Below, one piece after another: positions 6,772 to 25,094 of a DNA stretch of 31,639 nt (within the stretch, counting starts at the first letter, position 1; every line of letters starts with the position of its first letter). The position numbers and the translations under genes are program-made. The stretch covers positions 1 through 31,639 of the IMG/VR virus record IMGVR_UViG_3300042945_003213, one strand, 5' to 3'. The notes under the pieces were generated by a model that worked only from the letters and a program-made list of their open reading frames with translations, was not told where the DNA came from and did not search any database. Source of the DNA: a virus.

Positions 6772-8517
6772 ATGCAAATTTTAAATGAAGCAAAAATCCA
6801 CGAAACCTGGTCACCGATTATTGAATCACAGACAGGTATTAAAGATCGTGAAAAACTTAATTGGCTTTCCAAGTATTGCCATTATCACACATTGAACGAA
6901 TCATCAGCATACCAAACACTCGGTGGTACTCCTGGTATGGGTGGTGTTTCTACAGGTAACACACTTGGTTCAGGTGCATCTGGTTTCTATACAGGTACAA
7001 CTGGTTCAGGTGATAAGTTTCCATCACTTCTTCCTTTGGCAATCCAAGTTGCTGCTAAGACAGTAGGTTTTGACATTGTTAATGTTGTTCCTATGTCTGG
7101 TCCTGCTGGTGTTCTTACATATCTTGATTATGTATATGCTGGTGGTAAAATCAATAGTTCAGTTAAGCCTGAAATTATCACAATCAATGCTGGTCTTACA
7201 GGTAATCCTGATGCTGCATATGTAGTTGGTACTACATATTGGGGCTTAGACCTTCCAGGTGATGGTACAGATTTAGATGCGGGTCATGCAGTTAAATTGA
7301 CCTATGTAGGTAAGTCACGCATTACAGGTTATCCTATCTTCCGTGTTATTGGTACTTATGTAACAACAGGAACAGGTGCAGGTGTCACAGCAGATGATAC
7401 AGTAACTATTTCTGATGTATTCAGCCCAACAACAGCAGTTATTACAACTAATAATACTGGTGTAACACCTAATGTTCCTAATCTTGCATTAAACTTGCAA
7501 GCAGCATGTACAGGTAATGCAGAATTGGTAAATGCTCTTGAAAACCATGTTCATGGTTTTTCAGGTGCAGGTGCAACTGATGGAGATGATTGGCAAGGTG
7601 ATTTGATTACACCAACTAAAAACTATGAGCCAATGTCTCGTGGTACTGGTGAATCTACATACTATCGTGTTATGGGATTGAAGGCTTATACAAAGTTCGT
7701 AGAAGCAACAACTTACCAAGTTGCAGCATCTATCACAACTGAGCAAATTCAAGACTTGAATCGTCAGTATGGTATTGATGTTGTCGCTATGGTTGAAAAT
7801 GCACTTGTTAATGAGATTTCACAATCTATCAACAAGCACATCTTGAGCCGTGCATTTGCTCTTGGTTGGTCAAATAACTATGAGTTCTATCAAGTTATGG
7901 GCGAAACTCTTAACTTCCGTATTGATAGTACATCTGCTACAACATCTGCAGCATATTTGTTGAAAGATGGAACAACAACAACATTGGATATCAATGGTTT
8001 TGATCTTGCAGGTGCAGCTTCTACATTGTTTGAGAACTTATCAACAGTTCAACGTCGTGTAGTATCTAAGATTCTTGCAGCAGGTAATATCATTACTTCA
8101 AGAGGACGTCGTGGTCCAGCTAACTTTGTTGTAACAAATGCACAAGTTGCTACAGCACTTGCAGATGTTGCACAATTTACATTTGCTCCTATGGCAAATA
8201 CAATTAACCAAAACAATGGTTCTTTGTATCCTGTTGGAACACTTGCTGGTATGACTGTATATGTTGATCCTAACATGGAATGGACAGATACACGAGTTCT
8301 CGTTGGTCGCAAAGGTTCAGACGAAGAACCAGGTTTGAAATTCATGCCTTATTTGATGGCAGAACCAATTCAGACAATTTCTGAAGGTACAATGTCACCA
8401 AAGATTGCAGTTAAGAGCCGTTATGCTCTTGTTGAAGCAGGTCAGCTTCCACAAACAATGTACTATACATTTGTAGTATATCTTGGAGCAGCAGGTTCAA
8501 CAAAGTCTTTGGTTTAA
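6772..8517 (+). CDS. Major capsid protein, T4 gp23-like
   Basis: A 581-residue protein. After a polar N-terminus comes the family signature LLPLAIQVAAKTVGFDIVNVVPMSGP and LTYLDYVYAGGK (about residues 85-127), the segment that marks gp23-type HK97-fold capsid proteins. LNRQYGIDVVAMVENALVNE and the C-terminal KSRYALVEAG region complete the fold. Two possible prohead-protease sites are near the start, ILNE6/A7 and TLNE43/S44; cleavage at 43 would parallel removal of the T4 gp23 propeptide. Residues about 137-252 are an inserted domain that recurs in the tail sheath of this phage. The gene follows the protease-scaffold gene by 27 bases, without its own promoter, and is closed by a strong terminator. 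Confidence 0.93.
   Translation: MQILNEAKIHETWSPIIESQTGIKDREKLNWLSKYCHYHTLNESSAYQTLGGTPGMGGVSTGNTLGSGASGFYTGTTGSGDKFPSLLPLAIQVAAKTVGFDIVNVVPMSGPAGVLTYLDYVYAGGKINSSVKPEIITINAGLTGNPDAAYVVGTTYWGLDLPGDGTDLDAGHAVKLTYVGKSRITGYPIFRVIGTYVTTGTGAGVTADDTVTISDVFSPTTAVITTNNTGVTPNVPNLALNLQAACTGNAELVNALENHVHGFSGAGATDGDDWQGDLITPTKNYEPMSRGTGESTYYRVMGLKAYTKFVEATTYQVAASITTEQIQDLNRQYGIDVVAMVENALVNEISQSINKHILSRAFALGWSNNYEFYQVMGETLNFRIDSTSATTSAAYLLKDGTTTTLDINGFDLAGAASTLFENLSTVQRRVVSKILAAGNIITSRGRRGPANFVVTNAQVATALADVAQFTFAPMANTINQNNGSLYPVGTLAGMTVYVDPNMEWTDTRVLVGRKGSDEEPGLKFMPYLMAEPIQTISEGTMSPKIAVKSRYALVEAGQLPQTMYYTFVVYLGAAGSTKSLV
7180..7527 (+). repeat. Capsid copy of a domain shared with the tail sheath
   Basis: Encodes capsid residues 137-252: NAGLTGNPDAAYVVG, GDGTDLDAGHA, a YVG strand, VIGTYVTTGTGAGV, TISDVF, VITT, ALNLQ and TGN. 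The same order with about 60% identity by eye is found at 19141-19467 in the sheath gene. DNA is also visibly similar, e.g. ACAGGTAATCCTGATGC in both. Confidence 0.9.
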
Positions 8518-8540
8518 TCTTAGGATTATTCACAGAAATA

Positions 8541-8567
8541 AAGAGGGGGCTTTTAGCCCCCTTTTTT
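8541..8567 (+). terminator. Strong intrinsic terminator after the capsid gene
   Basis: GGGGGC (8545-8550) pairs with GCCCCC (8556-8561) around a TTTTA loop, with flanking A/T pairs extending the stem, followed by a T run. It sits between convergent genes ending at 8517 (+) and 8586 (-), so it may partly serve both strands. Confidence 0.92.
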
Positions 8568-8585
8568 ATTTTATAAACTATTATA

Positions 8586-9350
8586 TCAAAATAATGCGTT
8601 CTGAAATCCATCATTATTACTGATGGATTTAGTTTTGTTTTGCCTAATAGGAATGTTTGTCATTGATATACTGCGATCAAAATTAAAAAGAGGTTTTACA
8701 CTACTAATAACCTTTTTATTATCTTGCTTATTTTTACGAGTATATTTTTTTCTTGCTATATCAACGAAATCAGATACATTTGTTTCAATTCCATCTTGTT
8801 CTTTAAGAATATACTCTATTTGATTATTTATAGAAATCTTTTTGGCGAGTTTTTTAGGAACATTAAATTTATTCAAAAGTAAAAATTGCAATTGCTTTTT
8901 CGGATGCATTTCTTGTAATTCTTCTTTAGTATAAATTCTTTTGAAATCTGGTTTAGGTAATCTAGCATATTTTTTGTTTACATCAATTTCATTATTTGTA
9001 TATGAAACATATGTAGGTTTAGGTAAGGTATTAGTGGTAAAGAAACTAAAAGATGTTATATTTTTACTCTCAAAATTAAGTAGTTCAAATAAAAAGAATT
9101 TATGAACACCATTTCTGAACTCATATTCTCCAACAAATTTCAAGTCTTGGGTGCTATAATCAAATGAATTATTATCTTCAATAATAAGAAAACTTTTTGA
9201 AATAGGACTACTATCAAGATTTTCTAAAATGTAGAGTTCTGGATCAGATTTATCATTTTCAAGACGAACATGAAGAATTTGAGAATCTTCATAAGTCATA
9301 ATAGTTTCTATATCTCTGCAACCAAGTAGATACTTTGTTATAGACAACAT
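8586..9350 (-). CDS. Protein of unknown function
   Basis: I do not recognise this 254-residue protein. The first 150 residues look like a beta-rich domain (DSQILHVRLEND, SKSFLIIEDN, HKFFLFELLNFES), followed by a basic, probably helical and partly disordered C-terminus (KKLAKKISINNQ, IARKKYTRKNKQDNKK). No membrane span. Its start is well supported: TGAGGTAAAT immediately precedes the ATG, and a host-type promoter lies upstream with a predicted leader of about 33 bases. It is the last gene of the leftward block and may be transcribed separately from the genes above it. Confidence 0.65.
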   Translation of the reverse strand: MLSITKYLLGCRDIETIMTYEDSQILHVRLENDKSDPELYILENLDSSPISKSFLIIEDNNSFDYSTQDLKFVGEYEFRNGVHKFFLFELLNFESKNITSFSFFTTNTLPKPTYVSYTNNEIDVNKKYARLPKPDFKRIYTKEELQEMHPKKQLQFLLLNKFNVPKKLAKKISINNQIEYILKEQDGIETNVSDFVDIARKKYTRKNKQDNKKVISSVKPLFNFDRSISMTNIPIRQNKTKSISNNDGFQNALF

Positions 9351-9381
9351 ATTTACCTCATAAAGGTATAGAGAATTGTTA

Positions 9382-9419
9382 ATTATACAAATATAATTAT
9401 TATTTGTATAATACAGAAA
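9382..9419 (-). promoter_or_regulatory. Host-type (Bacteroidetes-like) promoter within a 12-bp inverted repeat
   Basis: On the minus strand, TATATTTG (rc of 9388-9395) fits the Bacteroidetes -7 box TAnnTTTG, with TTTCTG (rc of 9414-9419) 18 bases upstream as a weak -33 box. The -7 box is embedded in a perfect inverted repeat ATTATACAAATA / TATTTGTATAAT (9382-9393 and 9401-9412, 7-base spacer), which could be an operator. Predicted leader to ATG 9350 is about 33 bases and contains GAGG (9356-9359). Confidence 0.45.
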
Positions 9420-9424
9420 TTATT

Positions 9425-9967
9425 TTATGCTAAATCTTCTTCTTTTGGATTTTCGTCAAACCCTTCCGCATCTAAATAATCATCATTTTCTGTAGTAGTT
9501 TGACCTGTTCTGTCAAAATTTTCAGCTACTATAACTTGAGGAGTTTCATTACCTTTCCAAAGTTTTATACCTTTTTCTACTCCACGAGATGTAATATAAC
9601 CACCAACCGCAACAGTTAAAAGTGTCCACATTTCAGGTGGTAGATTTTTTAATTTTATACTAGGCCAAGTAAATTCAATAATAGGGTTAATAATATAATA
9701 TTGACCAATGATATACATAAATAAGTACATCATAACTGGTCTCCAACTTTCTAAAATATAAGTCCATAATTTAGACTTATTTGTTTGTGGAGTGTTTTTT
9801 GATTTTGCATTTAGATAGAAATTGAATTCTTTTTTTATTATATCTTCATTTCTTTTAATTAGTTTTGAAACTAAATTCCTATTACTATCTTTTTTAAGAT
9901 TTTTAGTTAAAAGATTTTCTAATCTATAAACAAAAAATTCTCCAAAATTATCGCACTCTTTAGACAT
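9425..9967 (-). CDS. Putative holin, 3TM-holin-like
   Basis: A 180-residue protein with a charged cytoplasmic-looking N-terminus (1-70), then WRPVMMYLFMYIIGQYYIIN (about 75-95) as a first hydrophobic segment. PPEMWTLLTVAVGGYITSRG (about 110-129) is next, followed by EKGIKLW and an acidic tail. The combination WRP, then a P-E-x-W-x-L-L segment leading to GGY-x-x-x-R-x-x-EK, is characteristic of the 3TM phage holin group (DUF3154-like). The first segment may be a helical hairpin. Role: pore formation in the inner membrane to time lysis. Its neighbour 10 bases upstream is another membrane-anchored protein. The N-terminal extension is longer than in small holins, so a different membrane role remains possible. 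Confidence 0.6.
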   Translation of the reverse strand: MSKECDNFGEFFVYRLENLLTKNLKKDSNRNLVSKLIKRNEDIIKKEFNFYLNAKSKNTPQTNKSKLWTYILESWRPVMMYLFMYIIGQYYIINPIIEFTWPSIKLKNLPPEMWTLLTVAVGGYITSRGVEKGIKLWKGNETPQVIVAENFDRTGQTTTENDDYLDAEGFDENPKEEDLA

Positions 9968-9976
9968 AGTTATTTA

Positions 9977-10807
9977 TTATTTTTTATTATCGCAGCAAAT
10001 CATACCTTTATACATAGCACCTTCTAATTCACCATTGAGTTCTTCAACTAATGATTCTGCTTCAAATACTATAACTTCATATAATGCTGTTACTAAATTG
10101 AGTATGACACCAACCCTATTACTATTAGATTCAAATCTATCAGAATTACAAATAGAAGAAATACATATATAAAGTATTTTTTCGGTTGTTCCATTCCAAT
10201 CTTCAGAAATCTTATCTAAAAATACATCTGGTATTCCTAAATCTTTACATTCTTGCTCTACGAGAGTATTTTTACGATGTAATACTTTTACAACTTTAGA
10301 ATATAATTCCATAGTTGATAATTCTTCAATATTGGGCAGAATTTCATCTATCAGTTCTTCCCATACATGTTTTCCTGTTCTTAAAAATATACGAACATAG
10401 TCCATAAAAATCATATGTCTGAATTTATCTCTTATCGGAAATAATTCAACTCTTGTTATCCAATATTCACATGCTTGAAAGAATGGATGTAACCTTAATT
10501 TAGATGCTTCTTTTATAGCATCAATTTTTTCTTCATTAAGAATATCTTTTATTTGTAATTCATAATGTAATTCTTTATTAGTCAATTCTTTCTTTAAAAA
10601 GTCTATTGTATCTTTGGCTTTCTTTAAGTCATCTTCGGTTTGCTTTTCCTTTTGTTTTAGTCGGAAATTGAGATACTTATATCCGCCAAGAATTGTGAAA
10701 ATAAGAAAGATAATAGTTATTCCACCAAAACCACCAAAAGTAGTAAAGAATGAAATAACCTTATCAATAGTTGATTGTACTTCTTTTAATTCATTAGCTT
10801 GTAGCAT
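9977..10807 (-). CDS. N-terminally membrane-anchored coiled-coil protein, unknown function
   Basis: A 276-residue protein. One hydrophobic segment at about residues 17-47 (VISFFTTFGGFGGITIIFLIFTILGGYKYL) follows a short helical N-terminus. A long charged coiled coil (about 50-105, KQKEKQTEDDLKKAKDTIDFLKK) comes next, then a globular helical domain with WITRVELFP and several Cys. The topology resembles inner-membrane accessory lysis proteins (spanin- or lysis-inhibition-like), but there is no sequence motif to assign it. It lies directly upstream of the holin candidate and directly downstream of phoH in a leftward block, so it is probably co-transcribed with both. Confidence 0.6.
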   Translation of the reverse strand: MLQANELKEVQSTIDKVISFFTTFGGFGGITIIFLIFTILGGYKYLNFRLKQKEKQTEDDLKKAKDTIDFLKKELTNKELHYELQIKDILNEEKIDAIKEASKLRLHPFFQACEYWITRVELFPIRDKFRHMIFMDYVRIFLRTGKHVWEELIDEILPNIEELSTMELYSKVVKVLHRKNTLVEQECKDLGIPDVFLDKISEDWNGTTEKILYICISSICNSDRFESNSNRVGVILNLVTALYEVIVFEAESLVEELNGELEGAMYKGMICCDNKK

Positions 10808-10842
10808 GATTATTAGTTAAATTATAACCTATATATTCTCAA

Positions 10843-11541
10843 TTATATCTTATTGTTTTTTAGTTTCCATTTATTGTAACTATCAGTTAGTTCAATAAGT
10901 ATTTTTGAGCGAACAATATCTTCTCTTTCAAAATTAAATTGTGTAGCACCTTTAATACCATTCAATATTTTTATGAAATCATTCAGTCCAGATTGATTTT
11001 TAGCAATATCATATTGTTCAACATCTCCACAGATAATAACTTTAGAAGTTTCGCCCATACGAGTAACAAATAATATAAGTTGTCTTAAATCGCAATTTTG
11101 AGCTTCATCTAAAACCATAATAGAACGATCAAATGTAGAACCTCTCATATATGCTAAAGGTCTTGCTTCTATAAAACCTTTATCTACCATAGTCTTAGTT
11201 TCAAGTTTTCCTATCATTTTTTCAAGTGTAATTAAAAAGGATTCCATATATGGAGCAATCTTTTCATCTATATCTCCTGGTAAAAATCCTAATTTTTCAC
11301 CCGATTCTTGAGCTGGTTTAGTTGTTATAATTTTATCAAATTCTCTTCTTGAAATGAGTTTTAGAGATGTGTACATAGTAACAAAAGTTTTTGCTGTTCC
11401 AGCAGGTCCTGTACAAACAACAATTTGATTTTGTTCTATTGCTTCTGCGAATTTCCTTTGATTAGGTGTTAATTGTATAGATTTATGTAAATCATTTGAT
11501 GATGATTTGGTAGGTCGTTGCTTACGACTTTTTGCATTCAT
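10843..11541 (-). CDS. phoH: PhoH-like ATPase
   Basis: A 232-residue P-loop protein with the full PhoH signature. LTPNQRKFAEAI precedes Walker A GPAGTAKT (45-52). ITTKPAQESGEKLGFLPGD (72-90) is the conserved PhoH segment. YMRGSTFDRSIMVLDEAQN follows, with Walker B LDEAQ (144-148), and then ICGDVEQYD. PhoH proteins are ATPases widely carried by large myophages; their role in infection is unsettled (phosphate-stress or RNA-related). The single-domain length is typical for phage copies, without the PIN domain of PhoH2. It sits 16 bases after the fibronectin-III gene and before the membrane protein gene. Confidence 0.92.
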   Translation of the reverse strand: MNAKSRKQRPTKSSSNDLHKSIQLTPNQRKFAEAIEQNQIVVCTGPAGTAKTFVTMYTSLKLISRREFDKIITTKPAQESGEKLGFLPGDIDEKIAPYMESFLITLEKMIGKLETKTMVDKGFIEARPLAYMRGSTFDRSIMVLDEAQNCDLRQLILFVTRMGETSKVIICGDVEQYDIAKNQSGLNDFIKILNGIKGATQFNFEREDIVRSKILIELTDSYNKWKLKNNKI

Positions 11542-11557
11542 AAAGATTGTTTTAATT

Positions 11558-12274
11558 TTAAGGTTGAGTTTCGAACGTTTGTATCGGTGAGTAAAAATTG
11601 TGTTTTGTTAATTCACAACTTGTACAAATTTGCCAATCATATGTTGTATTTGATAATAATCCATTTATATTGATAAATTTATTAGAACCTGGTACAGCAT
11701 ATATTGTCCACTTTTCTATATCTCTGGGTTTTATACGGATATAGTTTATTTCGGCATTATAACCAGAAATCCAAGTAAGTGTAACACTATTTCTTGTTAT
11801 AAAAGAAGATTTCAAATTAGTTGCTTCGGGACATTCATTTAGATTAAAACTATAATCTAATCCACATGATAATATCAATATCCAATCATTCCAAGAATTA
11901 TTATTTTCAATTTTTGTTATTGATGAATCAGAAGTTTTTATTACTATTGTAGTAGTATCATCTGCTAATGAATAAGATGAATTGATAATTAAAGTATTGA
12001 ATGATTTCTTTGTTATTTTATTAAATAAAATAGAATCATTTCCTTTAGAAGTGAAATTCCCACCTGGAGAATTTTCAAATTCTGAACTATATCCTAATAC
12101 ATCAGTATAGTTACCTGATACTATAATTTCTACAAATGTAAATCTTTTGGAATCTCTTGGTCTGCTATAATCGGAAGAATTGATAATAATATCAATAATT
12201 GGAATTATTTGTATTTCAGAATTATGAAGAGCCGATTGACCTATAAATTCTGGGGGTCTTTGTAAAAAATCCAT
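11558..12274 (-). CDS. Fibronectin type III domain protein, putative virion surface protein
   Basis: A 238-residue protein. Residues about 148-236 form one fibronectin type III domain: CPEATNLKSSFITRNSVTLTW, then YIRIKPRDIEKWTIY, INGLLSNTTYDWQICTSC and PIQTFETQP. The order strand-W, tyrosine-corner-like NTTYDWQI and a closing FET strand is typical. The N-terminal 140 residues are beta-rich and unrecognised, with no signal peptide. FnIII domains in phages usually sit on tail or capsid surface proteins and bind carbohydrates or proteins weakly. A late-type promoter element lies 20 bases before the ATG on this strand, which supports a late structural role. It heads the leftward block. Confidence 0.7.
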   Translation of the reverse strand: MDFLQRPPEFIGQSALHNSEIQIIPIIDIIINSSDYSRPRDSKRFTFVEIIVSGNYTDVLGYSSEFENSPGGNFTSKGNDSILFNKITKKSFNTLIINSSYSLADDTTTIVIKTSDSSITKIENNNSWNDWILILSCGLDYSFNLNECPEATNLKSSFITRNSVTLTWISGYNAEINYIRIKPRDIEKWTIYAVPGSNKFININGLLSNTTYDWQICTSCELTKHNFYSPIQTFETQP

Positions 12275-12293
12275 TCAAACAAGAATCATTTTG

Positions 12294-12306
12294 TTGTATA
12301 TATCAA
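12294..12306 (-). promoter_or_regulatory. Putative late promoter element, leftward
   Basis: On the minus strand the sequence is TTGATATATACAA, sharing TTGATATATA with the elements before the sheath, tube and 27244 genes. It lies about 20 bases ahead of the start at 12274. Confidence 0.5.
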
Positions 12307-12357
12307 AACATAAAATATTTAGACTTAAAAATCAGAGTTAGAAAACAATTTTGTTTA

Positions 12358-12371
12358 AGATATATAAAAAG
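12358..12371 (+). promoter_or_regulatory. Putative late promoter element, rightward
   Basis: AGATATATAAAAAG carries the GATATATA core but lacks the following G. It is divergent from the element at 12294-12306 and about 27 bases before ATG 12398, which has a fair Shine-Dalgarno (AAAGGTG). Confidence 0.4.
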
Positions 12372-12397
12372 TATAACAATTATTTAAAGGTGAATTT

Positions 12398-12667
12398 ATG
12401 TCGGAAAATGAATTTATGGGATATGATGATTTAGTTGAGTTCATATCTGAATTTATTATGGTATATGAAGCAGCGAGAATCACTCCTCATATTTATATCC
12501 AATGGTATAATAATCTTTCAGATGAACAGAAATGTTTTTTAATGGATGTTAGAGCTAAACAATTAGAAATAACCATGAAGATTGCATCTTTAGAAGAAGA
12601 AGCAAAAAAGTTTGAACAATCAATTCTTGATGAAGTTAATAAACTCATAAAAGGAAATGAAAAATAA
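12398..12667 (+). CDS. Small acidic protein of unknown function
   Basis: An 89-residue acidic, mostly helical protein (FMGYDDLVEFISEFIMVYEAAR at the start, EMTMKIASLEEEAKKFEQ-like helix at the end). No membrane span or known motif. It has a recognisable Shine-Dalgarno (AAAGGTG, 9 bases before ATG) and its own promoter candidate. It overlaps or nearly abuts the next gene, so the two are probably expressed together. Confidence 0.65.
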   Translation: MSENEFMGYDDLVEFISEFIMVYEAARITPHIYIQWYNNLSDEQKCFLMDVRAKQLEITMKIASLEEEAKKFEQSILDEVNKLIKGNEK

Positions 12668-12677
12668 AATCAAAATG

Positions 12678-13316
12678 ATGAAATATTTGAAACTCTTTGA
12701 AAACTTTGAGAATGAATCTGAAAAAAATATCAGAATGAATCAACCTGAAGAAACAAAAAGATGGATGGGTGGTATTTCTGAAATAAATGAAAAAGTCAAA
12801 GAGCTTCGTGAAGTTATGGATTTAATGAAAGAAGCAGAAAGACAAGTTGAAGAATTACAGAAAAGTCTTGGTGTGTCTGATTTAATTTCAGAGCAAAATA
12901 GATTGATGGAAGACATCAAAGTAGGAATGAGTTCTATAAGTAAATCAACACATAAAGCATATGGATTGATTTTAAAGCATAGAAAAGGAACTGTAAGATG
13001 GGATCCGCCAACTAAAACTCTTATGCTTGAGATAGTTGCTTTAGCGGTAGATGGTGCAAAGGATTTTATTGAAAGGATGAAAACTGAATCAGAATTTAAG
13101 AATCCTGTAAAAGTGAAGCCATCACTTAAAGTTGAATATGATGATGAAAATGTGACAGAAGCAGAAATGATGGAGAAGAATCCTTGGTATAAAAGGATGT
13201 GGGATAAACTTACGAATTGGCTAACTTCTTTCAGAAGAAAAGTTATAGATGTATCTAATGAATTAGATTCAAAGGTAAAAGAACTTGAAATGAGATTAGA
13301 AGAACAAAGTATGTAA
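12678..13316 (+). CDS. Coiled-coil protein of unknown function with MKYLKLFE start
   Basis: A 212-residue protein from ATG 12678; in-frame ATGs at 12675 and 12657 (the latter overlapping the previous stop) are alternatives. I chose 12678 because MKYLKLFENF is a start seen in several proteins of large T4-like phages, as I recall it. Residues about 25-90 are charged coiled coil (EINEKVKELREVMDLMKEAERQVEELQ). A compact middle follows (HRKGTVRWDPPTKTLMLEIVALAVDGAKDFIERMK), and the C-terminus has WYKRMWDKLTNWLTSFRRK, an amphipathic tryptophan-rich helix that could touch membrane or protein surfaces. No known family. Closed by a terminator shared with the convergent peptidase gene. Confidence 0.65.
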   Translation: MKYLKLFENFENESEKNIRMNQPEETKRWMGGISEINEKVKELREVMDLMKEAERQVEELQKSLGVSDLISEQNRLMEDIKVGMSSISKSTHKAYGLILKHRKGTVRWDPPTKTLMLEIVALAVDGAKDFIERMKTESEFKNPVKVKPSLKVEYDDENVTEAEMMEKNPWYKRMWDKLTNWLTSFRRKVIDVSNELDSKVKELEMRLEEQSM

Positions 13317-13347
13317 TAAAAAACTCCATTGAAATAAATGGAGTTTT
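13316..13347. terminator. Bidirectional intrinsic terminator between convergent genes
   Basis: AAACTCCAT (13321-13329) pairs perfectly with ATGGAGTTT (13338-13346) around GAAATAA-type loop bases. An A run before and a T run after the stem give a U tract on either strand, fitting the genes that converge here (stop 13316 plus, stop 13352 minus). Confidence 0.88.
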
Positions 13348-13351
13348 TAAT

Positions 13352-14068
13352 TTATAGAGAATCCCAATCAATTTTACATGATGCTTTTGAAAGTAATTCT
13401 AAAAATCCTAAATCTTGCTTTTCTGAATGAGAATGATGATTAAAATATCCAACAGATATGTTAGTACAATTTTCAATTCTCTTATAATCTACAAAACTAA
13501 ATGAATCGGTATTTACACCTTTATTATCTAAATTCATTTTCAAGCCTTCTTTATTTAAAGCATCTTTTAGTTTTATAGCAAAATTATCACTACAAGTTCT
13601 AACATTAGATTGATGGGTTATTATAGAATCATATCCTTTTCTATCAAAACTAATAACATTTTTAATTCGTTTTCCATACTTTTTAAATTCATCGGATTCT
13701 ACTGCAAATCTTGAACCTAACCTTCCTATTTCCTCACCAACAAAAAAATAATAAAGACCTGGTATCTGATTTTCAATCATAGAAAGAAGAATAGTTACAC
13801 CTGCTTTATCATCTGCTCCTAAAATTGTTTTACCATTTGTTTTGATAAAATCTTTAGAAATCTTATGTTTGATAGTTTCTGGTTCACCTTTACTAAAAGT
13901 ATCTAAGTGTGAAGTAAATAAAACAGAAGGTAAATCATCTCCAACTTTTATAAATATATTTCCAAATGGATCTATTTCATAAGTTGGAAAAAGATGTAAT
14001 AGAGATGATTCATACCCATGAGGTATGGTCGTTCTCACTAATTCTATAAATGTATCTTTTATATTCAT
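13352..14068 (-). CDS. M20/M28-like zinc aminopeptidase or peptidase
   Basis: A 238-residue protein with the ordered metal-ligand pattern of co-catalytic zinc peptidases. H54 and D56 are in SHLDT, D86 in ILGADDKAG, and E112-E113 in FVGEEIG (base plus ligand). D142 is in SFDRKG, and a histidine cluster H211-H214 lies in FNHHSHSE. It is short compared with cellular M20/M28/M42 enzymes (usually 300 or more residues) and lacks the M20 dimerisation insert. No signal peptide, so it should act in the infected cell. It could recycle or trim peptides, or attack a host peptide factor; the substrate is not shown. It is a lone leftward gene between rightward blocks, with a host-type promoter directly abutting its start, suggesting independent, possibly early expression. 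Confidence 0.8.
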   Translation of the reverse strand: MNIKDTFIELVRTTIPHGYESSLLHLFPTYEIDPFGNIFIKVGDDLPSVLFTSHLDTFSKGEPETIKHKISKDFIKTNGKTILGADDKAGVTILLSMIENQIPGLYYFFVGEEIGRLGSRFAVESDEFKKYGKRIKNVISFDRKGYDSIITHQSNVRTCSDNFAIKLKDALNKEGLKMNLDNKGVNTDSFSFVDYKRIENCTNISVGYFNHHSHSEKQDLGFLELLSKASCKIDWDSL

Positions 14069-14072
14069 AATA

Positions 14073-14104
14073 CAAATATAGGTAAAAGATAATAAAAAAC
14101 AAAA
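14073..14104 (-). promoter_or_regulatory. Host-type (Bacteroidetes-like) promoter for the peptidase gene
   Basis: On the minus strand, TTTTG (rc of 14100-14104), 19 bases, then TATATTTG (rc of 14073-14080) match the Bacteroidetes -33 TTTG and -7 TAnnTTTG boxes with canonical spacing. The -7 box ends only 4 bases before the ATG, so a start site about 5 bases downstream would make a leaderless or near-leaderless message. Confidence 0.55.
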
Positions 14105-14144
14105 TTTTTATTTTTTCTATATTGTAAAACAACAAAAAATTTCT

Positions 14145-15155
14145 ATGAGTAAAGATTACTATAACATACTTGATGTTAGTCCTCAAGCAACTGATGAAGA
14201 AATAAAAAAAGCATTTAGGACACTATCTCTCCAATATCATCCTGATAAAAATCCAAATGGTGCTGAAAGATTTAAAGAAATAAATGAAGCATATCAAACT
14301 CTATCTAATCCTCAAAAAAAGAGAGTATATGATATGCAAAGAAATTCTGGAGGTGGATTTGGTAATTCATCTTGGAATGATATATTTACTTCAACAGAAG
14401 GTATGTTTTCTGGGTTTGGTTTTGCCGAAGATATGTTTGAAAGAAGAGAACAACCCATTCAACCTTTAGAAGTTCAGGTATTTGCTTCAATTTATGATGC
14501 TATATTCGGAGCAAAAAAACAAGTATCATATAAGAGAAGAACTTGGTGTAGTTCATGTGCTAATACTCATAGTCGTTGTAATACTTGTGGTGGAAGCGGA
14601 ATTATTGTTCAAGTCAAAGGTAATGATTATTTCAGAGTTGAAGAAAGAACTCATTGTTACACATGTAAAGGAACAGGTTCTATTAAACAAAAAACACAAA
14701 ATTGTCCCACAAATTGCCAAGATGGATTTATTTTAGAAGATACAACATTAACATTTGAAATACCTAAAGGTATAGATAAAACTGGAATGTATAGAATGAG
14801 ACATGCTGGGCATGAATCACCTTCTAAAAGAGGACAAAGAGGCGATGTTATTGTTAAAATAGTAGAACAGGCAGAAGAAAATTATGAAAGAGTTGGAAAT
14901 GATATTGTTGTTACGCAACATATTAGATACATAGATTTGGTAACAGGAACGAAAAAAACTATATCTATTTTTGATGATCCAAATCTAACATATGAATACA
15001 AAATAAATAAATGGTTTGATACTGATGAATTGATAAAAATTTGTGATGGTCCTTTCATGAGTGGTAAAACTTATGCAAGAATAAAATTATACATTCCAAA
15101 ACAAGAATTAAATGAAGAACAACTTGAAAACTTAAAAAGAATATGTGAGGACTAA
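14145..15155 (+). CDS. dnaJ: DnaJ (class A type J-domain co-chaperone)
   Basis: A 336-residue protein. Residues 1-65 are a complete J domain (DYYNILDVSPQATDEEIKKAF, the HPD motif at 32-34, then RVYDMQR). A short Gly-rich linker follows. A cysteine zinc-binding region starts at C135 (CSSC, CNTCGGSG, CYTCKGTG, then CPTNCQDGF), after which come two beta-rich substrate-binding domains (FEIPKGIDKTGMYRMRHAG, RGDVIVKI). The protein should stimulate the ATPase of host DnaK and hand over clients such as capsid or tail proteins. The zinc region is irregular: the first module is CSSC-x6-CNTC and the last is CPTNC, and the G/F linker is short, so it is a reduced class A form. Its stop is 1 base from the next ATG. 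Confidence 0.93.
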   Translation: MSKDYYNILDVSPQATDEEIKKAFRTLSLQYHPDKNPNGAERFKEINEAYQTLSNPQKKRVYDMQRNSGGGFGNSSWNDIFTSTEGMFSGFGFAEDMFERREQPIQPLEVQVFASIYDAIFGAKKQVSYKRRTWCSSCANTHSRCNTCGGSGIIVQVKGNDYFRVEERTHCYTCKGTGSIKQKTQNCPTNCQDGFILEDTTLTFEIPKGIDKTGMYRMRHAGHESPSKRGQRGDVIVKIVEQAEENYERVGNDIVVTQHIRYIDLVTGTKKTISIFDDPNLTYEYKINKWFDTDELIKICDGPFMSGKTYARIKLYIPKQELNEEQLENLKRICED

Positions 15156-15156
15156 A

Positions 15157-15651
15157 ATGATAAATAGATTAAGTGAGATTGAAATTCAACTATTAAAAAG
15201 AGTTATCGTTCCAGAAATATTTGTTATTACAAAAAAAGGTTTAGCTCAAGTAATTAGTATTGATAAAAATAGAGTTTTAACTAATAGTAAAGAATATGGT
15301 GAGACTTATTATAGTTATGATGAAATCATTCCTATAATGAAAGGATTTGAACATCTTACTTTTCTTGATTTGTTTAACATTGTAGATATTTTAACTGATA
15401 GAATAGGATATGGAAACTATAAACCCAATCATAATTTTATTCCACACTATTACGAAATAACAGAAGAAAGTATAGATTTGAAAGTTCAAATATATCACAA
15501 TTTTGATATAATTCATTGTGATAACCTAATAACTAATTTAGGTTCAGTATATCATTATTTATTATCTAAAAATTTTGATGTATATAATCTGCATAAAAAA
15601 GGAATAGTAATAATAGACCCAGAGTATTATGGAACAAATAAATTACAATAA
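15157..15651 (+). CDS. Protein of unknown function
   Basis: A 164-residue protein starting at ATG 15157, one base after the dnaJ stop; GTGAGGACTAAAATG gives a GAGG ribosome site with correct spacing, so I prefer it to the in-frame GTG at 15145. Features: VPEIFVITKKGLAQVISI (small beta domain), a GFEHLTFLDLF segment, and a C-terminus SKNFDVYNLHKKGIVIIDPEYY. No membrane segment or catalytic motif recognised. The gene overlaps the following glycosyltransferase by 23 bases, indicating coupled translation of dnaJ, this gene and the transferase. Confidence 0.65.
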   Translation: MINRLSEIEIQLLKRVIVPEIFVITKKGLAQVISIDKNRVLTNSKEYGETYYSYDEIIPIMKGFEHLTFLDLFNIVDILTDRIGYGNYKPNHNFIPHYYEITEESIDLKVQIYHNFDIIHCDNLITNLGSVYHYLLSKNFDVYNLHKKGIVIIDPEYYGTNKLQ

Positions 15652-16432
15652 AATAGGAATAGGAATTGTTACATATAATTCCCCATCAAGATTGAAAATA
15701 TGTTTAGAGACTATTCCAAGTTATATCGAAAATGTTGTAATTGTAAATGATGGTACACCATACGACTTTACAATATATGGCAATCAACATGATGTAATTC
15801 AACATACAAAAAATAAAGGAGTAGCTGGAGCAAAAAATTCTGCTTTACGATATTTGGTTGGTAAAGGTTGTGAACATTTATTTTTATTAGAAGATGATAT
15901 TATTATAAAAGATGATAAAATATTTGAAAAATATATTGAAGCATCTTTGAAATCAGGTATAAAACATTTTAATTATGCTTTACAAGGATATGGAAATTCA
16001 AAAAGAAAGAGTGATGGTACAATAGATCATCCAACACCTGTATATTGTGTTCATTATGATGAAACGCATATTTGTTTCTATCATTGGTGTTCAGGTCCTT
16101 TTATGTATATCCATAAAGATTGTATAGATGCAGTAGGATATATGGATGAAAATTTTTACAATATACATGAGCATGTTGATTATACGAATAGAATTATAAA
16201 CGCTGAATTACATCCGCCATTTTGGTATTTTGCCGATATAGCAAATGCACATCATTATATTAATGATAGTCCTGAATTTAGAAATACAACAATTGAAAAA
16301 AATGATTACTATAATCAAAGATTAATAGGTGCTGATATTTATTTTGAACAAAAGCACGGACATAAACCTCTTAATATTCCACATAAATCAATAGAAGACT
16401 TACTTCTATTTTTACTAAAAATTAAACCTTAA
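15629..16432 (+). CDS. Family 2-like glycosyltransferase
   Basis: A 267-residue GT-A protein. It opens with IGIGIVTYNSPSRLKICLETIP and VVIVNDGTP, the nucleotide-binding strand and loop of GT2 enzymes. KGVAGAKNSALRY follows, then LFLLEDDIIIKDD, where E88-D89-D90 occupies the DXD position. FHWC/YHWCSGPFMYIHKDC and the C-terminal FEQKHGHKP fit acceptor and nucleotide contacts. The EDD form, rather than DXD, is common in GT2 relatives that act on proteins or lipids. No membrane span. The start overlaps the preceding gene by 23 bases. Its product could glycosylate virion proteins or cell-surface glycans; not determined. Confidence 0.78.
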   Translation: MEQINYNKIGIGIVTYNSPSRLKICLETIPSYIENVVIVNDGTPYDFTIYGNQHDVIQHTKNKGVAGAKNSALRYLVGKGCEHLFLLEDDIIIKDDKIFEKYIEASLKSGIKHFNYALQGYGNSKRKSDGTIDHPTPVYCVHYDETHICFYHWCSGPFMYIHKDCIDAVGYMDENFYNIHEHVDYTNRIINAELHPPFWYFADIANAHHYINDSPEFRNTTIEKNDYYNQRLIGADIYFEQKHGHKPLNIPHKSIEDLLLFLLKIKP

Positions 16433-16464
16433 TTTGCATATGTCAAATATTTTTATTATTTTTG
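16433..16464 (+). promoter_or_regulatory. Host-type (Bacteroidetes-like) promoter for the 16501 gene
   Basis: TTTG (16433-16436), 20 bases, then TATTTTTG (16457-16464) match the -33 and -7 boxes of Bacteroidetes promoters. The predicted start near 16469 leaves a leader of about 32 bases that contains TTGAGGTAG just before the ATG, nearly the same leader as that of the 9350 minus-strand gene. Confidence 0.5.
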
Positions 16465-16500
16465 TATTGCAATAGTTTTTTCAAATATGTTGAGGTAGTT

Positions 16501-16851
16501 ATGTCTTATACAAATGATGTATCGGTTATTGTTGAGGACAATTGTGTTAAAGTTGTTGGATATGATGGAGAGATTGATACCATTGTGTTCTTAAAATCAG
16601 ATGGTGATAAACTCGGTAAATCAAAAATTGTAGATAATAGAAATTATAATAGTCCACAAAATGACACTATAATTTTCAAAGATGAAACTTATATTGAAAG
16701 AATGTATGAAATGGCGGTAAAAGAAATTGAACAGATGGATAAAAGAATTGTCGCAGAATCATTTAGAAAAGATGTTTATCTTGATAAAATTAAGGGATAT
16801 ACATTCTCTGAATTTTTTAAGGATAACTTTCGGAAATCAAAAAAAGATTGA
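16501..16851 (+). CDS. Small protein of unknown function
   Basis: A 116-residue protein starting at ATG 16501 behind a good ribosome site (GAGG, 7 bases upstream). An open frame reaching upstream to 16462 would have to start with TTG inside the promoter and is not credible. Residues 1-55 are beta-rich (VSVIVEDNCVKVVGYDGEIDTIVF) and the rest helical and charged (RMYEMAVKEIEQMDKRIVAESF). No membrane segment. An independent promoter and a following terminator make it a single-gene unit. Confidence 0.68.
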   Translation: MSYTNDVSVIVEDNCVKVVGYDGEIDTIVFLKSDGDKLGKSKIVDNRNYNSPQNDTIIFKDETYIERMYEMAVKEIEQMDKRIVAESFRKDVYLDKIKGYTFSEFFKDNFRKSKKD

Positions 16852-16876
16852 AATTAAAATATAATCTTTGATGAAT

Positions 16877-16907
16877 AAGCCCTATTAGAAAATAATAGGG
16901 CTTTTTT
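16877..16907 (+). terminator. Intrinsic terminator after the 16501 gene
   Basis: AAGCCCTATTA (16877-16887) pairs with TAATAGGGCTT (16893-16903) around a 5-base loop, followed by a T run. Confidence 0.92.
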
Positions 16908-16989
16908 ATTAAAAACTGAGGATAATTAAATAATTAAGGTAAAATGTAAATATAAAATTCAATTTTTAAGTAAATTTCATTTTTACTTT

Positions 16990-17004
16990 TGATATATAGT
17001 ATTA
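16990..17004 (+). promoter_or_regulatory. Putative late promoter element for the tail sheath gene
   Basis: TGATATATAGTATTA differs in one base from the TGATATATAGAATA elements at 21443 and 27196. It is about 40 bases before the sheath ATG. Confidence 0.6.
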
Positions 17005-17030
17005 GTAAAACCCTCATTAGAGGAAAAAAA

Positions 17031-17051
17031 ATGCTTCTTAAATATGGCTAA
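17031..17051 (+). other. Possible six-codon leader ORF overlapping the sheath start
   Basis: ATG 17031 follows the purine-rich GAGGAAAAAAA and encodes MLLKYG before a TAA at 17049-17051, which overlaps the sheath ATG (17044) in another frame. The only Shine-Dalgarno-like sequence here serves this ATG and not the sheath ATG, so it could couple or tune sheath translation. Weak but specific. Confidence 0.3.
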
Positions 17052-20000
17052 AATTAAACTGGACCTGACTCAGTTCAAAGCATCTGGAGTATACACATTA
17101 GAATTTGACGCATCTGAAAGTATTATTCTTAATACACAGACAGTTCGTTTAGTTGTAGGTTTCTCAAGAAAAGGACCTTTCAATTCACCTGTATATTTGC
17201 CTGATGTTAAAACTGCAAGACGAATATTTGGAGAAATCGATCCTTTCTTGGAATCAAGAGGTAGTTTTTTCCATAGATCGTTATTTACTTGTTTAGATAT
17301 AGGACCTGTTTTTGGTCTTAATCTATTGCCGTTAAATAACCAACCTATTTCTCAAGGTGGAGATGCCACAGAGTACCGATCATTCTCAGTAGATACTGCT
17401 GAAACCAATGGTAGTGTAACAAAGGCTCTTTATTCTAATTTCTATAATACTCAAAGATTTTGGTATCCTGATGAAACAAATTTGGTTGCTATTGCAAATG
17501 CAAATGCTTCAAACACTGGAAAATTACTTCATATTGTAAATTTGAGCCAAGGACCACTTTCTGTTATCATCCGTAAAACAGTTGTTAATGGATTTGATAT
17601 TACAGCAAGAGATTGGTATGGTCAATCTGGTGAAGAAAAACCAGCATATATTGAAGACTTTGATTATATCGCAGATTACTTTGTAGAAGTTATTATTGTT
17701 CAAGGAAATTGGACAAACTATAAGAAACTTTCTACTGATCCAATATTCTCAAAATATTTCAACGAAAGAGGTATTCTTAAATCACAATTAAATGCATTTC
17801 TTTCATCAGAAGAAATCAATACTGTTGCAAGATTTAATGGATGCTTGATACCTGATTTTGTTGATGGTAATGGTGTAAATCATTCACTTGATACTATTGT
17901 TAATAATAGTGTTGCTACAACAGGTGTATTTTTAGCTTTTAATAAAGAAGCATTAGCTGATTATGAAACATCTACATCAAAATATGATGTAATTGGTCAT
18001 CATTTGGCTGATCCAGCATATAATGTAGATTATTTGGATATGTTGTCATATAAGACTAATGTTAAAGAAGAATTTACCTATACTGAAAACACAGGAAGTT
18101 TTACATCAACAACTTATGATGCAGAAACATCTGGAGATTATTATACAGAATCATATAAAGGTAGAGGTTCTCAAGGTGCATTCAAGAATGTTTTGGTTCT
18201 AAAAAGACCTGCATCAACATCTGTAGTAAAATATGCAGAATACCAATTTATCGTAAGTAATTTGATAGTAGGTGGTTCTGTAATTCAAATGGATAGTGGT
18301 GATTGGGCAAGAGTTGAATCAAAACAAGAAACATTAGATTCAAGTGGGAATACGATTTTGAAAATTACATTCTCACATCCTGATAAAGCTGATGAATTAA
18401 CAATGACACCCGTTAATGTTTTAGCGGCTACATTCCAAACATCACAGACAGTAACATTAACAAGTGGTTCAGATACATTTACAGTATCATCTGCTACTAA
18501 CATTCGTGAAAATCAGCCTATCACAGGAACAGGTATTCCTTCGGGTACATACATAACTGATATTACTGGAACAACTATTACAATGTCTGCAAATGCGACT
18601 GCAAGTGGTAGTGTTTTAGTAACATTTGGTGGTTCTATTGTTTTGAGTGGTGATCAAACAGGTGATATTGCAGATGGTGATGAAGTTCTTATTAAAAATT
18701 CTCAAGACACAACTACATTTTATGTAGATGTTAATGATTCACCAATTCTTAATGGTTCTTCAAATACAATCGTACCATTAGTGAATGTATTAAACTTGCA
18801 GGATATGACATATAACCCAAGTTATTACACATCAACATTTGGTGCTTTACAATTCCCTGATTTATCAGGCGACCAAATTACTATAGCTTACACTCCTGAT
18901 TTGTTTTATTTTGATACAACAGGAGCAGTTAATAAGTTTATTGCTTATCCATATTCACAAATCTATAAAGATTATGACTCTGGTTTCTTAACAAATGGTG
19001 ATAAATACTATTATGGTTCTACTGATTTTTATTATTTGAAATATGGTAAATCAGCAGATGCAGATGGTATTCCAGTTCTTGAAATTAGAGCATATGAAGA
19101 TAGTGCATTGAATACTGTTATTTCAGAATCAACAACATATATTGAAGTTAATGCAGCATTAACAGGTAATCCTGATGCAGCTTATGTTGTAGGTGGAACT
19201 TATTGGGCATTAAATGCACCTGGTGACGGAACAGATTTGGATGCAGGTTATGCTGCCGAACTTGAATATGTTGGAGCATCAACAAACACATCAAATGAAA
19301 TTTTCAAAGTTATTGGTTATTACACAACAACTGGAACAGGTGGTGCTGTAGTTGCTGATGCAACTGTTGAAATTACTGATGTATTTGATGGTTCAAGCGT
19401 AATTACAACTGATGATTCAGGAGAACCATTCACAGCATTGAACTTACAAGGTGCTGTAACTGGAACATATACACAAATCGGTTCATTTATTGATATTTTG
19501 AATTATGTTAAAGATGGTGCAATTAATTCATCAGGAACTATAAACATTTATCCATTTGCAGATTCTTTCTCTGAAACATTTGTTGTACAAGCATGGAATG
19601 CTACAAAAACAGAGGTTGATGTAAATGTAGCAGATGCAACTGGATTAGATGTAGGTCAATATCTTGTATCATATACAACTGATGATGAAGGTGCTGATGT
19701 TTATAGACTTACAAAGATTATTAGAAAGAGAAAGATTTTTGATGAAACAACTTCTCTTTTCAAATTCCGTTATACTGTAAATCAACCAATTCAAATTCTT
19801 AATGAATATGGTACAGGCGATAAAACTATCACAAGATATAAGTCAATAGACGATTTTGTTACTACTTATGAATTCTCAGGTATGAGTGGTTTCAAATTAA
19901 CATCATTCCACTTGCCAGGTGATAGAACTAATAAGCAATCTCAAATGGAGAAGATTTATGAAGTTCTTGAAACTACTAATCTTTTTGAAGCATTAACAAG

Positions 20001-20946
20001 TCGTGATGTTATCCAATTCCGTTATATTGTTGATACATTTGATGGTGGATTACAACCAAATAATTATCCAAAGAGCATTCTTTCTAAATTAGCTAAAGAA
20101 CGCTTGAAGTGTTTGGCTCTGCTTAATCCTCCTTCTGCAAAACAATTTGAAGCATCTACAGATCCTAGATTTACAGATGAACCAGATCCAGCAGGAGGTA
20201 ATCCAAGACCATTGTTGAATACATCTTATATTGCAACAGGTGGAAATCAATCTCTTGGACCAAGTTTCTCATATTCATTACCAGATGAAGAAAATGGAGC
20301 AAAACATGCAGCATTTTTCTTCCCTTACATAATTTTGAGAGATGGAACAAAGAATATAATAGTACCACCAGCAGCTCATGTTTCAAACAATTTTGTTTTG
20401 AAATTCATTAATGGTTTCCCTTACTCAATTGTTGCAGGACCTAGAAGAGGTATATTGTCAGATAGTCGTTTGGTTGGTCCTGAAATTGATTTGTCAGATA
20501 ACGATAGAGAATCACTTGAACCATTTGGTTTGAATCCTATTGTTAAGAGAGCGAGACTTGGTACAATGATTTATGGAAATCAAACTGCATACCAAAAAGT
20601 ACCATCTGCAATGAACAATGTTCATGTTCGTGATTTGCTGATCACTATTGAAGAAGGTGTTGAAGATATTTTAGCAAGATACATCTTTGAATTTAATGAT
20701 GCAACAACACGATTGGAAATTAAGTCTATTGTAGATACATTCTTAGATGGTGTTAGATCAGCAGGTGGAATATACAATTTCTTCACACAAATGGATGATA
20801 CAAACAATCCTCCTGAAATCATTGACCAAAACAAAGCTATTATTGATATTGCAGTAGAACCAGCAAGAGGTATTCAAGTTGCAATTTCAAGAATTACAGT
20901 TACGAAGACAGGTGGAGCAAACGCATCAGCGTTTCAGTTTGTTTAA
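17044..20946 (+). CDS. Tail sheath protein, T4 gp18-like, greatly enlarged
   Basis: A 1300-residue protein, about twice the length of T4 gp18. The N-terminus (LTQFKASGVYTLEFDASESI, VRLVVGFSRKGPFNSPVY) and the C-terminus (LNPIVKRARLGTMIYGNQTAY, VRDLLITIEEGVEDILARYIFEFND, RTVT-like last strand) are those of contractile-tail sheath subunits; the C-terminal part makes the inter-ring mesh. The extra length lies in the middle, where outward-facing domains are tolerated. It includes residues about 463-536, a Thr/Ser-rich beta domain (TLTSGSDTFTVSSATNI, GTYITDITGTTITMS), and 700-808, a copy of the domain found in the capsid protein. It has its own late promoter element and is followed by a long hairpin. 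Confidence 0.9.
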   Translation: MAKIKLDLTQFKASGVYTLEFDASESIILNTQTVRLVVGFSRKGPFNSPVYLPDVKTARRIFGEIDPFLESRGSFFHRSLFTCLDIGPVFGLNLLPLNNQPISQGGDATEYRSFSVDTAETNGSVTKALYSNFYNTQRFWYPDETNLVAIANANASNTGKLLHIVNLSQGPLSVIIRKTVVNGFDITARDWYGQSGEEKPAYIEDFDYIADYFVEVIIVQGNWTNYKKLSTDPIFSKYFNERGILKSQLNAFLSSEEINTVARFNGCLIPDFVDGNGVNHSLDTIVNNSVATTGVFLAFNKEALADYETSTSKYDVIGHHLADPAYNVDYLDMLSYKTNVKEEFTYTENTGSFTSTTYDAETSGDYYTESYKGRGSQGAFKNVLVLKRPASTSVVKYAEYQFIVSNLIVGGSVIQMDSGDWARVESKQETLDSSGNTILKITFSHPDKADELTMTPVNVLAATFQTSQTVTLTSGSDTFTVSSATNIRENQPITGTGIPSGTYITDITGTTITMSANATASGSVLVTFGGSIVLSGDQTGDIADGDEVLIKNSQDTTTFYVDVNDSPILNGSSNTIVPLVNVLNLQDMTYNPSYYTSTFGALQFPDLSGDQITIAYTPDLFYFDTTGAVNKFIAYPYSQIYKDYDSGFLTNGDKYYYGSTDFYYLKYGKSADADGIPVLEIRAYEDSALNTVISESTTYIEVNAALTGNPDAAYVVGGTYWALNAPGDGTDLDAGYAAELEYVGASTNTSNEIFKVIGYYTTTGTGGAVVADATVEITDVFDGSSVITTDDSGEPFTALNLQGAVTGTYTQIGSFIDILNYVKDGAINSSGTINIYPFADSFSETFVVQAWNATKTEVDVNVADATGLDVGQYLVSYTTDDEGADVYRLTKIIRKRKIFDETTSLFKFRYTVNQPIQILNEYGTGDKTITRYKSIDDFVTTYEFSGMSGFKLTSFHLPGDRTNKQSQMEKIYEVLETTNLFEALTSRDVIQFRYIVDTFDGGLQPNNYPKSILSKLAKERLKCLALLNPPSAKQFEASTDPRFTDEPDPAGGNPRPLLNTSYIATGGNQSLGPSFSYSLPDEENGAKHAAFFFPYIILRDGTKNIIVPPAAHVSNNFVLKFINGFPYSIVAGPRRGILSDSRLVGPEIDLSDNDRESLEPFGLNPIVKRARLGTMIYGNQTAYQKVPSAMNNVHVRDLLITIEEGVEDILARYIFEFNDATTRLEIKSIVDTFLDGVRSAGGIYNFFTQMDDTNNPPEIIDQNKAIIDIAVEPARGIQVAISRITVTKTGGANASAFQFV
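18430..18651 (+). other. Thr/Ser-rich beta domain inserted in the sheath
   Basis: Encodes sheath residues 463-536, with pattern VTLTSGSDTFTVSSATNI, QPITGTGIPSGTYI, ITGTTITMSANATASG and VTF. The same wording is familiar from repeat modules of phage tail and bacterial surface proteins (from memory, no search made). Only one copy is in this window, so it looks like an acquired module. Confidence 0.55.
19141..19467 (+). repeat. Sheath copy of a domain shared with the major capsid protein
   Basis: Encodes sheath residues 700-808: NAALTGNPDAAYVVG, TYWALN, GDGTDLDAGYA, EYVGAS, KVIGYYTTTGTGGAV, EITDVF, VITT, TALNLQ and TGT. It aligns along its whole length with capsid residues 137-252, with short gaps only near the end. 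Confidence 0.9.
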
Positions 20947-24037: not shown

Positions 24038-25094
24038 ACTACTAAGTATAATATATCCTACTAATAATAGAAATATAGGATTTATTCTTGATTCTTTAAG
24101 TACCATACTTTATCAAAGTTATCAAAGTTGGGAACTTATAGTAGTTAAAGATTCGTCATTTGATTTTGAAGATAAATGTGGTTTTCTTATTAATGATTAT
24201 AGATATAAAATTAAATTTATAGATGCACCTGATAATTGTGGTGTTGGAAAGGCAAGAGATATTGGATTAAAAAACGCAAGGGGTTCTTATATCGCATATT
24301 TGGATGACGATGATTTATGGAGTCAAGATTATCTTCAGAATCAAATTGATATTTTAGAAAAAAGCAATGCAGATGTTGTTTATTGTAATTATCATTTAAG
24401 GACTCAAATTTATAATGATATAGAAAAAAAGTATGTGCAACATTTTATATCTATACCATATAATGTAAATCCATTCGATAGAAATGTTTTATTAACCGAA
24501 TCATTTATACATCCTTCTTCAGTAGTTCATACTAAGAATGTTACAGAATTAATTGAATTCCCTAATCTTCGTTCTTTTAGTGAATGGGATTTTTTCCTTA
24601 AAATATCCAAATTATTCAGATTTCAAGCCAATTCTAATGTTTTAGCCACTATACAAAGAAGGTTAGATAATACAAATAGTAGAACAGAATTAAATAACGA
24701 ATCTATACATATTCAAAAAAGAATTATTCAAGAATATGATTCTGACATAAAGGATGAAGATATTAGAAAAATTAGAGATATGGTATTTAATGCATATGTT
24801 CAAGAATATGAAATTAAAGGAAACAGAGAAGCAAAAAAACTTGAAACTCTACTTCAAAACAGAGGTGTTGAATTTGCTTTTGCATATTTAAAGATGCTAT
24901 TAGATAGAAATGAAATTAATGCAAGTATTTGTAAAGTAGCATATGATATATCACTATTAAAAAATAATAAAGATTTGGCTGAAGATTTTCAATTTCTTAC
25001 ATTGTGGTATAGTGGACAGATTACTGAAAACTATTCTACATATATTCCCAAGTATTTTGAGAGAAACAACGAACAATGGAACGCATTACTATAA
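24030..25094 (+). CDS. Family 2 glycosyltransferase inside the topoisomerase operon
   Basis: A 354-residue protein with a classical GT2 N-terminal domain: LLSIIYPTNNRNIGFILDSLSTIL, SWELIVVKDSS, NCGVGKARDIGLKNARGSYIAYLDDDDLW (D92-D95 giving the DXD), and ADVVYCNY. The HPSSVVHTKN and SEWDFFLKIS segments correspond to the acceptor site. The C-terminal 130 residues are helical and unassigned. No membrane segment. It overlaps the topoisomerase large-subunit gene by 8 bases and the medium-subunit gene by 19, so all three are translationally coupled. The location suggests either gene insertion into the operon or a function linked to DNA, but nothing in the sequence shows DNA as the acceptor. Confidence 0.82.
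   Translation: MAKLLSIIYPTNNRNIGFILDSLSTILYQSYQSWELIVVKDSSFDFEDKCGFLINDYRYKIKFIDAPDNCGVGKARDIGLKNARGSYIAYLDDDDLWSQDYLQNQIDILEKSNADVVYCNYHLRTQIYNDIEKKYVQHFISIPYNVNPFDRNVLLTESFIHPSSVVHTKNVTELIEFPNLRSFSEWDFFLKISKLFRFQANSNVLATIQRRLDNTNSRTELNNESIHIQKRIIQEYDSDIKDEDIRKIRDMVFNAYVQEYEIKGNREAKKLETLLQNRGVEFAFAYLKMLLDRNEINASICKVAYDISLLKNNKDLAEDFQFLTLWYSGQITENYSTYIPKYFERNNEQWNALL

Follow-up and report, generated by a model that had tools for sequence, protein, structure and literature searches.

Introduction

The insertion domain (‘I-domain’) of gp23-type capsid proteins has been described for phages P1 and T4. In P1 this domain points outward and provides additional contacts from one capsomer to another (PMC12810830); in T4 it connects neighbours inside a single capsomer (PMC3185693). 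For the contractile tail, the portion of a published account of sheath proteins that is drawn upon here (PMC9230969) places extra sheath domains away from the tail tube, proposes stabilisation or adhesion as their use, and cites Fraser et al. 2006 for the observation that phage structural proteins have Ig-like domains in common.

The DNA analysed below (‘the window’, meaning the whole stretch of 31,639 bases that forms positions 1-31,639 of IMG/VR record IMGVR_UViG_3300042945_003213) belongs to a T4-like phage and encodes both a major capsid protein and a tail sheath protein. An earlier note on this DNA, made from its letters without database searches, had proposed that one and the same inserted domain occurs in both proteins, as an outward-facing module displayed on head and tail. 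The analysis presented here leads to an account that, taken as a whole, is considered probable: that an old capsid I-domain was copied into the sheath and has since been maintained there, likely as an exposed accessory domain.

A domain common to the capsid and sheath proteins

The identities that had been assigned to the two genes proved to be right (Table 1). The capsid protein has the gp23 fold, while the sheath protein is gp18-like and possesses both the C-terminal domain and the conserved core of contractile tail sheaths; the two recipients are otherwise unrelated. The likeness claimed between capsid residues 137-252 and sheath residues 700-808, put at about 60% by eye, was borne out when computed: BLASTP returned a single strong match between capsid residues 136-248 and sheath residues 700-807, with 62% identity and 72% positives across 113 aligned positions that include 5 gaps (E 3e-35). 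Their coding sequences are alike too (68% over 225 nt, E 1e-17), and the words LTGNPDAAYVVG, GDGTDLDAG, TTGTG, DVF, VITT and ALNLQ were confirmed in both. A protein search across the whole 31,639-base record located the domain at exactly two places. A single domain is common to two virion proteins of unrelated architecture, as the note had claimed, and its duplication inside this phage lineage is likewise supported.

Table 1. Coordinates in the window of the capsid and sheath genes and of the features within them
Feature	Position	Strand	Evidence
Major capsid protein, gp23 type, 581 aa	6772..8517	+	Pfam Gp23, E 1.7e-41; best Foldseek matches are T4 gp23
Capsid I-domain, residues 136-248, native copy of the common domain	7177..7515	+	62% identical to sheath 700-807; relatives have diverged homologues at this position
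Capsid motif GKSRITGYPIF, residues 180-190, within the I-domain	7309..7341	+	Near-invariant in capsid proteins
Tail sheath protein, gp18-like, 1300 aa	17044..20946	+	Pfam Phage_sheath_1C; T4 gp18 and other solved sheaths
Conserved N-terminal part of sheath, residues about 1-330	17044..18033	+	Aligned in all sheaths compared
Structural unit around the sheath copy, residues about 696-812	19129-19479	+	
Sheath copy of the capsid I-domain, residues 700-807	19141..19464	+	BLASTP match to capsid; missing from other sheaths; AlphaFold2 pLDDT 82.9, pTM 0.82
Degenerate motif GASTNTSNEIF, residues 744-754, in the sheath copy	19273..19305	+	Arg to Thr in both known sheath copies
Conserved C-terminal part of sheath, residues about 945-1300	19876..20943	+	Aligned in all sheaths compared; T4 gp18 match at 1146-1291

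The capsid segment

The capsid segment is the native I-domain of gp23-type capsid proteins and not a foreign insert. Its position does correspond to that of the gp23/gp24 I-domain, as had been suggested: it lies within a gp23-family protein (by Pfam Gp23, by the gp23 fold and by alignment of all relatives), and a fast-diverging segment occupies this position in every relative aligned. Capsid loci were drawn from IMG/VR scans (67, then 80, with 79 sheath loci), and the nearest annotated capsid relatives are those of an uncultured huge phage, of Lak megaphages and of T4-like phages of Tenacibaculum and Flavobacterium. The length of the segment ranges from 61 to 170 residues among 107 distinct I-domains, and at its centre stands a motif, GxSR(I/L)xG, that is near-invariant in the capsid family and is present in the window’s capsid copy. 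Its serine is found in 100% and its arginine in 99% of the 107 domains; across 39 capsid proteins S182 and R183 are invariant, and G180 and G186 are conserved in at least 90%. Searched with a domain profile, many capsid proteins of relatives proved to contain diverged members.

Because both the segment and the motif stand in all aligned relatives, the capsid segment is native and evolves rapidly around a fixed motif. Of the original proposal of an ‘inserted’ domain in both proteins, the half that concerns the sheath stands, the segment there being an insertion relative to the sheath’s kin, and the half that concerns the capsid falls, the segment there being native to the family. An extra module added to both proteins is thus not supported, given the native I-domain and the invariance of S182 and R183 in those 39 proteins.

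A second hypervariable stretch was observed in the same protein, at capsid residues of about 380-420, where identity to locus L028 (compared over window 6772-8514) is about 40-50% in surroundings of at least 90%.

The sheath copy: distribution, setting and predicted fold

Two near-identical contigs and a separate contig of 200 kb (IMGVR_UViG_3300032295_003763, here ‘G006’) hold the sheath copy at the same place. G006 is collinear with the window across the latter’s whole length, the two sheaths are 86% identical, and both carry the copy, which must therefore predate their split. The copy is restricted to this clade. A profile search of sheaths matched those of the window clade and G006 only (the sheath copy scoring 168 bits), and found the domain missing in 42 of 43 non-redundant sheaths from the scan; four distant sheaths from a genome-contig scan are also without it. 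When the 107 distinct I-domains were compared with 5,379 open frames from 327 loci, matches outside capsid proteins were confined to the window-clade and G006 sheaths, and no third copy was found among those frames (G006 being covered at 60-200 kb) or in the window. Occurrence of the domain in both proteins, when looked for in other phages by profile search, was thus seen only in the window clade and G006, and only two sheath lineages with the copy are known. The capsid copy alone matched nothing at E <= 1 among 50,697 phage records, and the sheath copy matched nothing at E <= 5 among isolated phages. The same phenomenon was sought elsewhere by comparing capsid with sheath in 18 other same-genome or closely matched pairs, which gave no convincing match; three weak capsid-sheath matches in other pairs (E 0.002-0.003, obtained without composition correction) were set aside as compositional.

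The sheath copy sits in the variable middle of the protein, between the conserved N- and C-terminal parts, and in the nearest sheaths without it the flanks align on either side of a gap, the alignment of the variable middle itself being loose. It derives from an I-domain yet is no working capsid I-domain: it is homologous to capsid I-domains by both the pairwise match and the profile score given above, and its SR motif is not intact, threonine standing in place of the motif arginine in both known sheath copies (those of the window and G006).

Other features of the variable middle were recorded along the way. Related sheaths at L163:2784-7427 (1548 aa) and L168:3980-8368 (1463 aa) hold other long inserts there, with no Pfam name. 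Residues of about 466-528 of the window’s sheath (window about 18439-18627, TGTGIPSGTYITDI...) match PHROG virion structural proteins (phrog_5838, E 1.5e-7; phrog_6005, E 5.6e-7), and perhaps represent another shared module.

The AlphaFold2 model of the sheath domain alone (Table 1) comprises one short helix and seven predicted strands, and the unit both begins and ends with a strand. Its inner elements follow the order seen in the capsid model, which had been named as a test of the shared domain; the full capsid model (pLDDT 63) recovers the gp23 fold and has most of the domain at 70-78. The two copies are thus predicted to have the same fold, with capsid rows present in the alignment from which the prediction was made. 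A search of BFVD gave the sheath copy a sole match at E <= 0.001, to the capsid protein of Tenacibaculum phage pT24 (E 2e-5, TM 0.67); this supports the origin of the copy but is not independent of it, because of those same capsid rows. No match to the sheath domain was found among PDB folds at E <= 0.001, and no Pfam family matched the domain at E <= 1. On these grounds an Ig-like domain was rejected, as was a known carbohydrate-binding domain, for which neither a family nor a fold match was found.

Maintenance of the sheath copy

The sheath copy is old and is maintained by purifying selection: dN/dS between the two sheath copies is 0.14, as compared with 0.09 for the rest of the sheath. Between the window’s own capsid and sheath copies dN/dS is 0.20 and dS is 1.72, and recent gene conversion between them was rejected because synonymous sites are near saturation.

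A variable sheath middle, in which other sheaths hold other and longer inserts, might also harbour a neutral passenger, that is, a copy in a permissive loop for which nothing is selected beyond harmless folding; and selection merely to fold could still produce a low dN/dS. Such a passenger is nonetheless unlikely, since the copy has been kept in two lineages whose synonymous sites have diverged, at the low ratio given above and with its loops conserved. Several loops outside the core (NPDA, GDGTDLDAG) are kept better in the sheath copy than a purely structural role would demand, which tells against the account preferred here.

Possible functions

As for its role, the sheath copy most probably forms an exposed accessory domain, which by analogy with described I-domains and sheaths would face outward and serve as an extra surface domain. 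Its likeliest use may be to stabilise the tail by linking adjacent sheath subunits, because capsid I-domains are outward, subunit-bridging domains; weak adhesion to the host would be the second choice.

The explanation favoured in the earlier note was a decorative module, foreign to both proteins and carried on head and tail, that binds glycans or bears glycans made by the phage. The same loops have been kept in both window copies despite near-saturated synonymous sites, and glycosyltransferase genes lie between the structural genes of the window (three above the Pfam cut-off, of family 2, and a weak fourth, of family 8), which lends the glycan idea circumstantial support. However, the capsid copy is native; glycan binding found no backing in any Pfam family or significant PDB fold match, no carbohydrate-binding family or fold having emerged; the content of serine plus threonine is only slightly raised (20-21% versus 17-18%); and the copies in G006 differ in type, the sheath copy having been kept there beside a capsid I-domain of a different type, so that head and tail need not display the same one. 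A decoration of this kind is therefore judged distinctly improbable. A related idea, in which the capsid I-domain is a common surface element of head and tail whose NPDA and GDGTDLDAG loops form the same ligand or glycosylation site on both, is likewise doubtful; if true, one enzyme or one ligand would address the whole particle through the shared loops.

Five glycosyltransferase-like genes were noted among the structural genes (223-948, 948-1643, 2137-2859, 15629-16429 and 24030-25091), all with collinear counterparts in G006; the gene at 948 is the weak family 8 match, and that at 223 resembles its neighbour only by eye. The structural cluster also contains two type II topoisomerase subunits (22214-24034 and 25076-26449), with a glycosyltransferase gene between them, and the window ends in an open-ended collagen-like protein with GxQ repeats (29671-31638; 656 aa to the contig end), the less repetitive part of which has a counterpart in G006.

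Probable direction and history of the copying

To return to the account preferred here, the sheath gene, about 10 kb downstream of the capsid gene and on the same strand, would have received a copy of the coding stretch of an ancestral capsid I-domain. This copy would have landed where the sheath is variable, in its middle, with the conserved ends that form the contractile core on either side, and a unit with its first and last strands at its two ends could fit in a loop there without disturbing that core. The copy would then have lost the capsid-specific Ser-Arg motif, while its predicted fold and several of its loops were kept under purifying selection. The donor family is that of the capsid I-domains, and a direction from capsid to sheath is indicated because both sheath copies have lost the arginine, which the reverse direction would require to be regained. 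In a tree, the sheath pair groups next to the capsid I-domains of window type (support 90/90); an alternative tree that joins the two capsid types to the exclusion of the sheath pair could not be rejected (p-AU 0.107), so the type that served as donor is uncertain.

The history of the capsid I-domain itself is discordant. Between the window and G006, identity of the capsid proteins is 87% outside the domain and 46% for the I-domains, whereas in the same comparison the window’s capsid I-domain shares 61% identity with the sheath copy of the window. Such a discordance would be accounted for if the capsid I-domain had been replaced, or had changed very fast, in one lineage; replacement in the capsid lineage of G006 is favoured, though not proven. 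Most comparisons show raised synonymous change within the domain (permutation p 0.0001 to 0.09), but some elevation is also seen within I-domain types.

These figures for identity could also be read in the opposite sense, with the domain originally belonging to the sheath and replacing the capsid I-domain in the window lineage. Such a reversal is very unlikely: the SR motif found in nearly all capsid I-domains is present in that of the window’s capsid and lacking in the sheath copies, and the domain occurs throughout the capsid family but in no other sheath. That chance resemblance or a chimeric assembly explains the match is scarcely credible, for although every sequence with the sheath copy is a metagenomic contig, the segments match at E 3e-35 and the copy lies in an open frame under purifying selection, and an assembly artefact is ruled out by its presence at the same place in the two near-identical contigs and, with the same junctions, in the diverged, separately assembled 200 kb contig.

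Comparison with known systems

Under the preferred account, the capsid’s own I-domain has moved into a contractile sheath, and thus between two unrelated proteins that form lattices of different symmetry. I-domains would then be portable units, and the sheath would possess a natural site able to accommodate about 110 additional residues. With a homologous domain in each of two settings, the role of an I-domain can also be asked about apart from capsid assembly. No earlier report of a capsid domain in a tail sheath was found in the open-licence literature with the search words chosen.

The Lak megaphages and the T4-like phages of Tenacibaculum and Flavobacterium, which are the nearest annotated relatives of both proteins, have a diverged capsid segment at the same place, and their sheaths are without the copy. 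As compared with the gp23/gp24 I-domain of T4 and P1 (PMC12810830, PMC3185693), the capsid copy described here occupies the same site, between the N-terminal and later parts of the protein, is similarly beta-rich, and is the corresponding domain of the gp23 family; searched alone, the domain gave no significant sequence or predicted-fold match to solved T4 chains. What differs from T4 and P1 is the second copy in the tail sheath.

The arrangement of that second copy recalls the multi-domain (‘type 3’) sheaths of large phages, in which, according to the portion of PMC9230969 used here, the core is built from both ends of the chain and extra beta domains lie between them, away from the tail tube; the extra domains in that portion are mostly Ig-like, and a capsid-derived one is not reported in it. 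Like the Ig-like domains, the domain described here is a compact beta domain in unrelated virion proteins and is probably exposed; unlike them, it matches no Ig family or fold, and it derives from a capsid protein within the same lineage and not from a widespread mobile domain. The reuse by a phage of a part of its own head on its tail is thus real and unusual. Ig-like domains offer a precedent in principle for such sharing, and here both donor and recipient are new.
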